The notes beneath the pieces are model-generated. The model was given only the letters and a program-made list of their open reading frames with translations, was not told the DNA's origin and searched no databases. This document shows positions 9,553 through 22,101 of a stretch of DNA of 37,069 bases, piece by piece. This DNA is from Methanosaeta sp. PtaU1.Bin060 (GTDB taxonomy: Archaea > Halobacteriota > Methanosarcinia > Methanotrichales > Methanotrichaceae), in assembly GCA_002067365.1 (NCBI GenBank), contig MVRK01000126.1:1-37069 (forward strand), given 5' to 3'. The first letter of the stretch is position 1. Each line of letters opens with the position of its first letter. Position numbers and translations under genes: made by a program.

Positions 9553-11070
9553 ATGAGGATATTATTTGATACAAATGTATTAATCCATCGAGAAGATGAT
9601 CGAGTTATTTCGTCGGACGTTCAAGAATTACAGCAATTATTAAACAGAATCGGTGCTACTATATTAGTTCATCCGTTATCTTTAAACGATTTAGAAAACG
9701 ATAAAGACACTTTACGCAAAGAGAGAGTATCGTCTAAAATAAAGACGTATATCCCTCTCAGAAGCTATCCTGATCCACAAAACCCTGAAGACAATAGTTT
9801 TATAAATGCAGTAGGTATTGATTATAAAGGAAATGATAAAATCGATACAGCAATATTGTACTCAGTATATAAAAATGCCGTAGATTTTCTTATAACTGAA
9901 GATAGAGGGATCCATAAGAAGGCAGAAAAAGTCGGACTTGAGGATAGAGTTCTGCTAATTGCCGATGCATTACAAACCTTTAGAACATATCTGCCTGTAG
10001 ATGAATTAATATCTCCACCAGCACTAGAGAAAGTACCTGTTTATACACTCGATTTGAGTGATCCTATATTTGATTCGTTAAAGGGTCAGTACCCAGAGTT
10101 TGAATCGTGGTTTGAGAAAATTTCACGTCAAGGAAGGGAATGCTGGGTATATTATAGAGATGAGATTGGAGACAATAAGAAAATAGGTGCATTGCTTATA
10201 TATAAAGAGGAAAATGATCCAATTGATTCCCAACCTCCACTTTCTAACGAAAGACGATTAAAAATTAGTCTTTTTAAGGTAACCTATATTGGCCATAAAA
10301 TTGGAGAGTTATTTATTAAACTAACAATAGATTATTGTATAAAGAATAACATCGCATCTATATATTTAACGCATTTTACTGAAGACAACGATCAACTTAT
10401 CGAGTTAATATCTCAGTACGGATTCATGAAAATGTCCGTCAACTCTAGAGGCGAAGATATTTTTGTAAAGGAATTGGTTGTAGATAGCGAAATACTTAGA
10501 TCATTAACGCCATTAGATATTACTAGGCAGTTTTATCCAAACTTCTACGATGGACCTAAGGCAAAGAAATTCGTTGTCCCCATCTATCCTCAATATCACA
10601 ATAGGCTCTTTACAGACTTCTTGGAAAGACAGCCAACTCAGGAGGAAACTTCGGGGGAAATTCTTAGTGAGGGCAACGCGATCACAAAGGCATACCTATC
10701 CCATTCGCAGATAAGAAAAATAGATCCGGGTGATATACTATTATTTTATCGCACAAGCCCAGATCAAGAGATTACTTCTATTGGCGTAGTTGAATCGGTC
10801 CATCCTGGCACGTCAGACAATGAGGAAATAATGAAACTGGTAGCGAAGAGAACAGTATTTTCTAGGAAAGAGATCGAAGATATGAGGAAGCCTTTAATCA
10901 TTATTCTATTTAGGCACCATTTCCACTTAGAAGATTATTTAACATTAGATGAATTAACCGACCTGGGTGTTTTGGCTGGAGCACCACAATCTATATCGGA
11001 GATATCCCACGAAAACTATTTGCGTATAAAGGACATAGGACATATCGATGGACGTTATACTCTCGATTAA
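9553..11070 (+). CDS. PIN-GNAT-PUA-like multidomain protein
   Basis: This is a 505-residue fusion. Residues 1-145 form a PIN nuclease domain: F-D-T-N with D6, acidic residues near 46-48, D98 in N-D-K-I-D-T-A, and D117 in L-I-T-E-D-R-G-I, the usual metal-binding set. Residues about 185-310 look like a GNAT fold (strand L-K-I-S-L-F-K-V, G-H-K-I-G-E-L-F-I, then I-Y-L-T and L-I-S-Q-Y-G-F). Residues about 335-500 resemble a PUA/EVE-type nucleotide-binding barrel with D-P-G-D-I-L-L-F-Y-R. The gene is clearly AT-rich compared with the ribosomal genes, and its 3' end overlaps the ASCH gene by 23 nt. Role inferred: an RNA-cleaving effector, perhaps self-regulated. Domain limits are estimates. Confidence 0.75.
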   Translation: MRILFDTNVLIHREDDRVISSDVQELQQLLNRIGATILVHPLSLNDLENDKDTLRKERVSSKIKTYIPLRSYPDPQNPEDNSFINAVGIDYKGNDKIDTAILYSVYKNAVDFLITEDRGIHKKAEKVGLEDRVLLIADALQTFRTYLPVDELISPPALEKVPVYTLDLSDPIFDSLKGQYPEFESWFEKISRQGRECWVYYRDEIGDNKKIGALLIYKEENDPIDSQPPLSNERRLKISLFKVTYIGHKIGELFIKLTIDYCIKNNIASIYLTHFTEDNDQLIELISQYGFMKMSVNSRGEDIFVKELVVDSEILRSLTPLDITRQFYPNFYDGPKAKKFVVPIYPQYHNRLFTDFLERQPTQEETSGEILSEGNAITKAYLSHSQIRKIDPGDILLFYRTSPDQEITSIGVVESVHPGTSDNEEIMKLVAKRTVFSRKEIEDMRKPLIIILFRHHFHLEDYLTLDELTDLGVLAGAPQSISEISHENYLRIKDIGHIDGRYTLD

Positions 11071-11557
11071 ACCTAAGTATGTCGATGCAATATTACGAGG
11101 TGAGAAGAAATACGAATTTAGAAAAAATATATTTAAAGGAAAAAAGATAGATGATATCTATATATATTCAAGTTCACCTATAAAAAAGATAGTAGCTTCA
11201 TTTACGGTAAAGAGAATAATAGAGGATAGGCCAAACAACCTCTGGGATAAATTAAAGGATTATTCAGGTTTAGATGATAAAGAATTCTTCAACTATTTCA
11301 CCGATAATGGCAAAGGATTTGCCATAGAAATTGATAATTTAGAGAAGTTTAAAAATCCGATCGATCCAAAAACCCTTATTCCTGGATTTACGCCGCCACA
11401 ATCTTTTTGTTATTTAGAAGCATCTCTACTTCCAAAAAATAATATTAATAAATCTAAGGTAAGTCAAAAGAATAATTTTCAACCTACGAATAATCACACT
11501 AAGCAAAGCTATCAGGAAACGCTTTTTAAGTATAATAAGATCGCCCTAACTAAATAA
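11048..11557 (+). CDS. ASCH-domain protein
   Basis: This 169-residue protein begins M-D-V-I-L-S-I-K-P-K-Y and carries the ASCH signature G18-E-K-K-Y-E-F-R25 (GxKxxExR). I-Y-I-Y-S-S-S-P and I-V-A-S-F follow, forming the beta barrel of the PUA-like superfamily, predicted to bind RNA or modified nucleotides; some relatives are nucleases. Residues after about 130 are Asn/Lys-rich and probably disordered. It starts inside the 3' end of the PIN fusion gene, so the two are made together. AT-rich composition matches its partner. It could be an RNA-binding cofactor or antidote for the PIN enzyme (inference). Confidence 0.78.
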   Translation: MDVILSIKPKYVDAILRGEKKYEFRKNIFKGKKIDDIYIYSSSPIKKIVASFTVKRIIEDRPNNLWDKLKDYSGLDDKEFFNYFTDNGKGFAIEIDNLEKFKNPIDPKTLIPGFTPPQSFCYLEASLLPKNNINKSKVSQKNNFQPTNNHTKQSYQETLFKYNKIALTK

Positions 11558-11570
11558 TAAAAGATATTAG

Positions 11571-11667
11571 CGCCGAGGGTGAGATTCGAACTCACGAGAC
11601 CCTTGCGAGTCACCAGCTTTCCAGGAGTTCTCTCCAGGCTGGCGCCCTACCGCTAGACGACCTCGGC
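11571..11667 (-). tRNA. tRNA-Ser(GGA) with predicted 13-nt intron
   Basis: The minus strand folds as a class II tRNA: acceptor GCCGAGG/CCTCGGC with discriminator G73; D arm GTCT...GGGC; anticodon stem CCAGC/GCTGG; variable arm GACTC-GCAA-GGGTC; T arm GTGAG-TTCGAAT-CTCAC. The long variable arm with G73 points to serine. The anticodon loop is 20 nt instead of 7. Removing 13 nt (about 11619-11631) at the usual 37/38 site leaves CTGGAGA, giving anticodon GGA. The inner GGAG-AGAA-CTCC helix fits a relaxed bulge-helix motif for the archaeal splicing endonuclease. The exact cut sites are inferred. CCA is not encoded. It begins 4 nt after cbf5, so it is probably cut from the operon transcript. Confidence 0.88.
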
Positions 11668-11671
11668 ACAC

Positions 11672-12814
11672 TTAGCGCTTTTGCGGCTTTGCAGCCGCCG
11701 CGGAAGCATCTCTCTCTGCCAGCTTCCACGCTTTCGGATAGGTGCCCGGCTCCATTATTACCCTTTCGGTCTGAGCGACGATTCCAGTCTTTGTGGCGAG
11801 CATCTCGCGGCTCGTCAGCTGCGCCACACCAACGCCCACCGCCTCTCCTTTCAGTGTGAAGAGGGCGACGATATCCCCCTTGTTGATCTCCGTCTCAAGG
11901 GCGAGCAGCCCCGGGGCCGCCAGGGGCGCTCCGTGGCATATGGCATCCACTGCGTTGTCGGCGATGGTAAGACGTGGCAGGTGCCGCAAGGCCGCCTCGA
12001 CCGGCTGAACTGCGCGGCGCAGCGGTCCCTCGTCCCCTTTCTCCTTCCAGGCCACATAGGCGTCCTTCAGCTGGTGCAGCGTCACGAGCGTCCCGTCCTC
12101 CCTGAAAGGTCCCGACTTGGTGCGGCGCAGCTCCTCCATATTCGCCCCGACGGCGAGCGCGAGGCCGATGTCGTAGCAGAGCTTCCTGATGTATGTCCCC
12201 GCCTCGCATCCGACGCGAAAGAGCACATGCTGCCCCTCGATCTCCAGGACATCCAGATAGTAGATCGTGCGGGTGCGCAGCTGCTTGACCACAGACGACT
12301 TCAGCGGCGGCTTCTGGTAGATCACTCCCACGAACTCGCCGCATACCTCCAGGATCCTCCTGCGCGGCACAGGATGGTGCAGGCGCATGAGACAGATGTA
12401 CTCCTTTCCTGCCAGCAGAAGAGTATCCATAACCCGCGTGGCATCGCCGAGCAAGACAGGCAGAATCCCCGTCACCTTCGGGTCGAGAGTGCCGCTGTGC
12501 CCCGCCTTAGGGACATCAAGAATCCTCTTCACCCAGGCCACCACCTCGTGGCTCGTCGGCCCCGAGGGCTTGTCTAGGTTGATCGCCCCGAGGCGCAGGT
12601 GCATCTCAAGGCTGCGCCCCTCAGGCGGCAAGCCAAAAGAAGGATCAGTCTTGCCCGTCCTCTTCACCAGAAGGGACCTCCTCTTCTCGGACGGGAGCGC
12701 GCGTGCCGGGACGGCGGCCGCAGCAGGACTGGCTGTATTTGCACCCTCAGTCTTATCAGTGATATTGGCAGTATCGGCAGAAATGCCAGAATCCGAAGGC
12801 TCAGCCGACCTCAT
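11672..12814 (-). CDS. cbf5: tRNA/rRNA pseudouridine synthase Cbf5 (archaeal TruB)
   Basis: This is the catalytic subunit of H/ACA RNPs, also able to make pseudouridine 55 in tRNA. About 380 residues. The core begins with I-N-L-D-K-P-S-G-P-T-S-H-E-V-V. The catalytic Asp is in H-S-G-T-L-D-P-K-V-T-G. R-V-G-C-E-A-G-T-Y-I-R-K-L and E-L-R-R-T-K-S-G-P-F follow, then a C-terminal PUA domain (about 285-365). An Ala/Ser/Thr-rich extension of roughly 40 residues precedes the family's normal start. I prefer the ATG at 12814, which overlaps the cmk stop (ATGA); a GTG at 12832 is also in frame. It is the last protein gene of the operon. Confidence 0.95.
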   Translation of the reverse strand: MRSAEPSDSGISADTANITDKTEGANTASPAAAAVPARALPSEKRRSLLVKRTGKTDPSFGLPPEGRSLEMHLRLGAINLDKPSGPTSHEVVAWVKRILDVPKAGHSGTLDPKVTGILPVLLGDATRVMDTLLLAGKEYICLMRLHHPVPRRRILEVCGEFVGVIYQKPPLKSSVVKQLRTRTIYYLDVLEIEGQHVLFRVGCEAGTYIRKLCYDIGLALAVGANMEELRRTKSGPFREDGTLVTLHQLKDAYVAWKEKGDEGPLRRAVQPVEAALRHLPRLTIADNAVDAICHGAPLAAPGLLALETEINKGDIVALFTLKGEAVGVGVAQLTSREMLATKTGIVAQTERVIMEPGTYPKAWKLAERDASAAAAKPQKR

Positions 12815-13341
12815 TGTCCCTGGCTCTGGCACGCCCTCGCTGCCGCCAAAACTATCGAGAACGTTCCAGCCTCGTCGAACTTTCCAGTGTCCACAACCAG
12901 GTCGTAAACCGAGAGGTCGCCTATCTCTATGTTGTAGTACATCTTGTACCTGCGCGCCTCGCTCTCCTCCCTCGCCCTCGTCTCCTGTATCGCATCCTCC
13001 GAGAGCTTGGACTCACGCTTCGCAATGCGCTCAGAGCGCAGCCGCAGTTCCGTCTTGAGAAGCACCCTCAGATCCGCTGGGAGAAGATGTCCCGATAGCC
13101 TCCCCTCGAAGATCCCCTGCCCATCCTTGGCAAGGGCCTTCTGGGCGTCATCTATCAGGTAGTCTATCTCGGGACCCTTCTCCGCCAGCCGGTTCATCTC
13201 CTTCACGGAGACTCCCCTCTCGCTCGCGATCTTCCTGAAGAGCTCCCCCGAGTTCACCCACCTGATCCCGAGCGCCTGAGAGAGGCCGCGCGCGAGGGTG
13301 GTGGTGCCAGTCCCCGGTGCTCCGCTGATGGTTATTATCAT
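12811..13341 (-). CDS. cmk: cytidylate kinase, archaeal type
   Basis: This 176-residue enzyme phosphorylates CMP/dCMP with ATP. The N-terminal P-loop is G-A-P-G-T-G-T-T-T at residues 7-15. G-E-L-F-R-K-I-A is the nucleotide-monophosphate site, followed by F-E-G-R-L-S-G-H and the lid R-I-A-K-R-E with R-A-R-E-E-S-E-A-R-R. The size and the short lid match the archaeal CMP kinase family. It is commonly found next to cbf5 and the EMC3/DUF106 gene in euryarchaea, as here. It overlaps cbf5 by ATGA, with a 44-nt gap before it. Confidence 0.93.
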   Translation of the reverse strand: MIITISGAPGTGTTTLARGLSQALGIRWVNSGELFRKIASERGVSVKEMNRLAEKGPEIDYLIDDAQKALAKDGQGIFEGRLSGHLLPADLRVLLKTELRLRSERIAKRESKLSEDAIQETRAREESEARRYKMYYNIEIGDLSVYDLVVDTGKFDEAGTFSIVLAAARACQSQGQ

Positions 13342-21811: not shown

Positions 21812-22101
21812 AACTTCCACCTCGTCCTCTGCATTCTCTTGCTTATTCTGTTCTCGGGCTGCGAGATCAGGATTGTGCCCGCGACCCTCACCCTCTGCCC
21901 GTCGGGCAATGTGAAGATCAGGCTCGTGTATACCTTTTGGATGCGCAATGTTCTGCGCTCAGTCTCCACGAGCAGGGTATTCCTGGTCTCATCCACAACC
22001 CGGCCGGAGATGCCGACCAATCCCCGATCCGAGGACTCGTCCACTAGGACATGAAGTCCTATCAGCTCGTGCCTTGGAAGGTTCTCCGGCTTAGGGTTCA
22101 C
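21808..22101 (-). CDS. rnp1: ribonuclease P protein component 1 (Rpp29/Pop4)
   Basis: This 97-residue protein subunit of archaeal RNase P helps remove tRNA 5' leaders. The Sm-like barrel shows [22 protein letters not shown] and [11 protein letters not shown] start at 22101 overlaps the uL29 stop (GTGA). Its place between uL29 and uS17 is the usual archaeal location and links ribosome production with tRNA processing. Confidence 0.94.

Follow-up and report, generated by a model that had tools for sequence, protein, structure and literature searches.

Protein-spliced introns of archaeal tRNAs that interrupt the anticodon loop between nucleotides 37 and 38 occur within two related folds of the precursor: the strict bulge-helix-bulge (BHB, or hBHBh'), which has a second 3-nt bulge and an inner helix, and a relaxed form, termed hBH or bulge-helix-loop (BHL) in the nomenclature of Marck and Grosjean (cited in PMC6379350 and PMC4090602). 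The hBH motif has mostly been linked with heterotetrameric or epsilon2 splicing endonucleases, and published views conflict as to whether an alpha'2 enzyme can act on it. A review limits alpha2 enzymes to canonical BHBs and so denies such cutting (PMC4033280), whereas the Archaeoglobus fulgidus EndA has been reported to remove BHL introns at 37/38 from full-length pre-tRNA (PMC6379350), and homodimeric EndA has been reported to cut BHL-like motifs (PMC8707768).

The locus described here lies in a Methanosaeta genome (a 136-contig assembly of 2.78 Mb), on contig C126, all 37,069 nucleotides of which were analysed and are called ‘the window’ below. It harbors a tRNA-Ser(GGA) gene that shares with the archaeal 37/38 introns their position, the 3-nt bulge at the 3' splice site, a possible helix between positions 32-35 and the intron, and the presence of an EndA. 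With the BHL form in particular, it has in common one clear 3-nt bulge, a possible helix, and a terminal loop where a strict BHB would have its second bulge and inner helix. It differs in that its intron is only 13 nt long (others in the genome measure 14-41 nt, and 11-nt cases exist in related lineages), and in that the host is a euryarchaeon with an alpha'2 enzyme. The best joint explanation of the locus, to which we assign a probability of roughly 0.93, is a functional tRNA-Ser(GGA) gene with an EndA-spliced intron at 37/38, most likely transcribed by read-through from cbf5. As a feature, the gene belongs to a known kind, of which it is an ordinary and unsurprising example.

The tRNA-Ser(GGA) gene and its intron

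The gene, intron included, occupies positions 11571..11667 of the minus strand. Its match to the Rfam tRNA model RF00005 (44.7 bits, E 1.7e-6) runs from 11667 to 11571 on that strand, precisely the interval in which an earlier note on this DNA had placed a tRNA-Ser, and homologues are found in nearly all relatives. The mature part is an 84-nt, class II tRNA with a perfect acceptor stem (GCCGAGG/CCUCGGC, 5' to 3') and no encoded CCA; its anticodon, GGA, lies at 11633..11635 (minus strand) and is also called (gga) by ARAGORN in the homologues. The anticodon stem CCAGC/GCUGG closes a loop, CUGGAGAGAACUCCUGGAAA, of 20 nt, the same count as in the earlier note, which corresponds to a normal loop of 7 nt plus 13. 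ARAGORN, run without its intron option, called no tRNA in the window; with that option, tRNA-Ser(GGA) homologues were called. The closest cbf5 sequences to that of the window belong to Methanothrix/Methanosaeta MAGs.

The insert between 37 and 38, in a tRNA that is otherwise normal, is best read as a 13-nt intron, AGAACUCCUGGAA, at 11619..11631 (minus strand). In the Methanotrichaceae relatives checked, this tRNA, again behind cbf5, holds an intron of 12-18 nt in that position in every species except one, variable in sequence between nearly constant exons. In the one exception (L063/L089), the insert is absent, the loop reads CUGGAAA and the remaining tRNA is intact; because this species is nested, in a maximum-likelihood tree of cbf5, within a 20-row and otherwise intron-bearing set (support 97/94), its intron was lost exactly. 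Three changes are needed to account for the presence and absence of the intron on that tree. The outgroups (Methanosarcinaceae, Methanoperedens and ANME-2) lack an intron in tRNA-Ser(GGA), a separate clade of MAGs (L115-L119) has one of 11 nt, and introns of 12-20 nt or 29 nt are found in this tRNA in other families of the phylum. The 29-nt case (L175, from genome G076 of family f11) lies behind cbf5 and could form a long inner hairpin, and a second genome of the same family (G068) has no intron in its tRNA-Ser(GGA).

These comparisons leave next to no probability for the view that there is no intron at all, and that the 20-nt loop either functions as such or marks a decayed gene: almost unchanged exons surround an insert of variable length and sequence, that insert is missing exactly in one species, eight further tRNA genes of the genome have inserts in this position, and the window copy is the sole complete tRNA-Ser(GGA) found there (a second copy, on contig C81, is partial), as required for UCC and UCU codons. 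A splice at 36/37, or shifted by one, deserves a little more attention, since the window taken by itself would allow it: removal of 13 nt after nucleotide 36 leaves the 7-nt loop CUGGAAA, the commonest loop of the intronless homologues. Applied to the relatives, the same cut yields U37 in 11 of 28 distinct introns, although intronless homologues have a purine at 37, whereas a cut at 37/38 leaves G or A in all 28, and this difference places the splice at 37/38. The latter position also agrees with cleavage after the second base of the 3-nt bulge, and both loops that it produces (CUGGAGA and CUGGAAA) are seen in intronless homologues, CUGGAGA in L130. Opposite C32, all 28 introns have a G. A cut at 36/37 is accordingly quite improbable. 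The variable-length introns at a single place, the one exact loss and the purine at 37 together support the proposal, put forward in the earlier note, that a relaxed fold holds a 13-nt intron at 37/38, which is the best reading of the sequence.

That note had also called the intron very small. It is indeed the smallest in the genome, but its size is not unusual for the lineage, as seven further introns of 14-27 nt accompany it. Introns at 37/38 were found in the genes for Arg(GCG) (14 nt), Gly(TCC) and Arg(TCG) (16 nt each), Lys(TTT) (17 nt), Asn(GTT) (18 nt), Thr(CGT) (21 nt) and a tRNA with a CAT anticodon (27 nt), each of which forms all four central-helix pairs, and in the gene for Ser(TGA) (41 nt). 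Several ARAGORN isotypes (tRNA-SeC and tRNA-Gly(GCC), and tRNA-Pro or tRNA-Thr among the homologues) were rejected as artefacts of intron placement; with the intron set at 37/38, the tRNAs are Arg(TCG), Arg(GCG) and Ser(GGA). Counting Rfam matches and one gene found via similarity, introns thus occur in nine or more of the genome's roughly forty tRNA genes, which exceeds the ‘less than 10%’ given for Euryarchaeota (PMC4090602). A literature search found no paper discussing tRNA introns of Methanothrix. We presume, nonetheless, that those of Methanosaeta thermophila PT probably stand in tRNA databases already. The ground for that presumption is that this strain is one of the 45 genomes covered in PMC2237900.

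Precursor fold and splicing endonuclease

The predicted fold of the precursor is a bulge-helix-loop, a relaxed BHB with an AAA bulge on the 3' side and a loop at the 5' splice site. The bulge (11618..11620, minus strand), which adjoins the anticodon stem and contains the 3' splice site (AA^A38), is kept in the minimum-energy fold, and a 3-nt bulge at this place suits the relatives too. The central helix would pair CUGG of tRNA positions 32-35 (11634..11637, minus strand) with CUGG of the intron (11621..11624, minus strand). Its four possible base pairs (C-G, U.G, G.U and G-C) include two adjacent wobbles, and of the genome's eight introns measuring 13-27 nt, this one has the weakest central helix. 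A shifted register, pairing GGAG (34-37) with CUCC of the intron, is more stable in ViennaRNA calculations on the window sequence (-10.7 versus -6.7 kcal/mol for CUGG/CUGG); it likewise keeps the AAA bulge, and the 5' cut then adjoins a tetraloop, such that the 3' site is clear while the 5' site has an uncertain geometry. The second 3-nt bulge and inner helix of a strict BHB were not found in the window intron, where the inner stretch GAACUC can form at most one pair. An inner helix becomes possible in longer introns of relatives: in those of 16 nt, three inner pairs (GAG/CUC) are possible, and the GAG-UUU-CUC form is a strict BHB. In the M. harundinacea group, mismatches take up two of the four pairs in the central helix.

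The only splicing endonuclease found in the genome is encoded on contig C46 by a single fused open frame of 356 codons with two tRNA_int_endo domains; no second EndA gene was found in the genome. The protein is closest to the alpha'2 EndA of A. fulgidus (1r0v/1rlv, 2gjw), with which it aligns over about 310 residues and which (1rlv, 2gjw) likewise carries two tRNA_int_endo domains in one chain. It differs from the A. fulgidus enzyme in being longer, and the genome that encodes it has at least nine intron-bearing tRNA genes. Aligned to 3p1y, the Methanothrix EndA shows a gap where that AFU-like chain has extra residues, at the site of the specificity loop, and this alignment reveals no specificity loop of the crenarchaeal or ARMAN type inserted ahead of LSLVES in the catalytic half. 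Judging from the EndA alignment and PMC6379350, 3p1y would be a loop-grafted form. By its sequence, the Methanothrix EndA is an alpha'2-type enzyme devoid of the crenarchaeal specificity loop.

A plausible sequence of events can be outlined. RNA polymerase would most likely read through cbf5 into tRNA-Ser(GGA), the ends of which would be released by RNase P and a 3' end-processing enzyme. The single alpha'2-type EndA would then recognize the BHL, with its anticodon stem, AAA bulge and helix between 32-35 and the intron, and would cut after G37 and before A38 (the exact cut sites being predicted), whereupon a tRNA ligase would presumably join the halves to give the loop CUGGAGA. The restriction of alpha2 enzymes to canonical BHBs asserted in PMC4033280 counts against such cutting at the window tRNA.

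Gene order and transcription

The gene directly upstream of the tRNA is cbf5 (11672..12832, minus strand), which encodes the archaeal tRNA/rRNA pseudouridine synthase (Pfam TruB_N, TruB_C_2, PUA and DKCLD). Its stop codon and the tRNA are separated by a spacer of 4 nt (GTGT, 11668..11671, minus strand), which has no room for a promoter. The same spacing had been reported in the earlier note, and the position behind cbf5 proves to be kept in relatives. At 71 of 80 cbf5 loci, ARAGORN found a tRNA gene, mostly tRNA-Ser(GGA), in a few cases several hundred nucleotides off; the median spacer is 11 nt (61 loci measured, drawn from two overlapping sets and not all independent). In a sample of 40 genomes from 24 of the phylum's sampled families (which are numbered f1 to f26), cbf5 is followed by tRNA-Ser(GGA) in 14 families and by tRNA-Pro(GGG) in three, and no tRNA was found after it in the remaining families sampled, including four of the four sampled members of f6. 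The distribution marks cbf5 followed by tRNA-Ser(GGA) as an old arrangement in the phylum, and a literature search found no paper describing the linkage. The loci at which tRNA-Pro(GGG) replaces tRNA-Ser downstream of cbf5 (L173, L179 and L182) represent three other families, which we guess to be haloarchaeal.

The 400 nt upstream of the window tRNA hold no TATA-like 8-mer that has at most two mismatches. The best match to TTTATATA near its start has mismatches at five of eight positions, as compared with a median of three for the best matches upstream of 38 other tRNAs of the genome; a good TATA-like box is also missing at L001 and L032, two tRNAs situated directly behind another tRNA. Because the gene has no such box of its own, it probably depends on read-through from cbf5, a reliance to which the 4-nt spacer also points. 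The alternative, that a promoter within the 3' end of cbf5 drives transcription of the tRNA apart from the cbf5 cluster, can appeal to the fact that archaeal promoters may sit within genes and that a TATA-like box stands about 31-38 nt ahead of many other tRNAs of the genome. The poor matches just described speak against it, as does the conservation of short cbf5-tRNA spacers across the lineage, and we regard it as unlikely, though the most serious of the alternatives. How far upstream a common transcript might extend is a separate matter. The RNase P p29 subunit Rnp1 (21838..22086, minus strand; PF01868, 73.4 bits) is encoded about 10 kb upstream of the tRNA in the same unidirectional ribosomal-protein cluster, and it is possible that both lie on one transcript, a suggestion that goes further beyond the data than does co-transcription with cbf5. 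Elsewhere in the window, the minus strand at 27193-27286 matches the Rfam model of the L4-Archaeoglobi ribosomal leader (59.7 bits), the host of this copy being a Methanothrix.

The tRNA might also owe its surroundings to an integrated element for which it served as the attachment site, the low-GC genes downstream and the tRNA-Ser copy on contig C81 being the remains. The genes downstream are indeed AT-rich (a pair on the opposite strand, at 9553-11557, with a weakly EVE-like domain and an ASCH domain), and C81 starts within the 3' part of a tRNA-Ser(GGA). However, C81 (L069) matches a contig of the M. soehngenii-like genome G004 along all of its 9.8 kb at 98.7% identity, whereas the cbf5 genes of the two species are 81% identical, and C81 is therefore most likely a cross-binned contig; its tRNA-Ser(GGA) fragment was rejected as the far attachment site of an island. 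Moreover, no repeat of the tRNA of 14 or more bases occurs elsewhere in the window, and no integrase was found on C126. The attachment-site view is very improbable, a shade more so than a splice at 36/37. The idea that integration had given the intron a chimeric origin was dropped too, as C81 is most likely cross-binned and the nearest species have matching introns.

Integration and defence-like genes do adjoin serine tRNA genes at other loci. In the window's own genome, a 16.1-kb stretch of contig C135 (51890-68036; L203) lies between direct repeats, 64 nt long and perfect, of the 3' part of tRNA-Ser(GCT), and a tyrosine integrase (67068-67565) lies beside that tRNA; these features mark the stretch as an integrative element that occupies a second tRNA-Ser gene. 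Directly behind tRNA-Ser(GGA), L069 (189-8784) encodes defence-like proteins (a long PLD/helicase-like, a large methylase-like and a Fic-like protein) and L070 (760-2163) a defence-like, restriction-like protein, as judged from translations only.

Significance for Methanothrix and its phylum

A broader proposal may be drawn from these observations: that in Methanothrix and its neighbours, a euryarchaeal lineage, an alpha'2 endonuclease lacking a specificity loop routinely removes tiny BHL introns (11-27 nt), and that, ever since an early stage of the phylum, a tRNA-Ser gene has been expressed solely at the tail end of the cbf5 transcript. Taken as a whole, this proposal is tentative, with odds that we would put slightly below even. 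Methanothrix nevertheless offers a set of natural substrates, all in the same tRNA, that range from a near-strict BHB (16 nt, of the M. soehngenii type) to a minimal BHL (12-13 nt) and that come with one type of enzyme, and this set amounts to a natural test of the action of alpha'2 endonucleases on BHL introns. The conserved order of cbf5 and tRNA-Ser(GGA), for its part, provides a clear test case for the dependence of an archaeal tRNA on read-through from a protein-coding operon.
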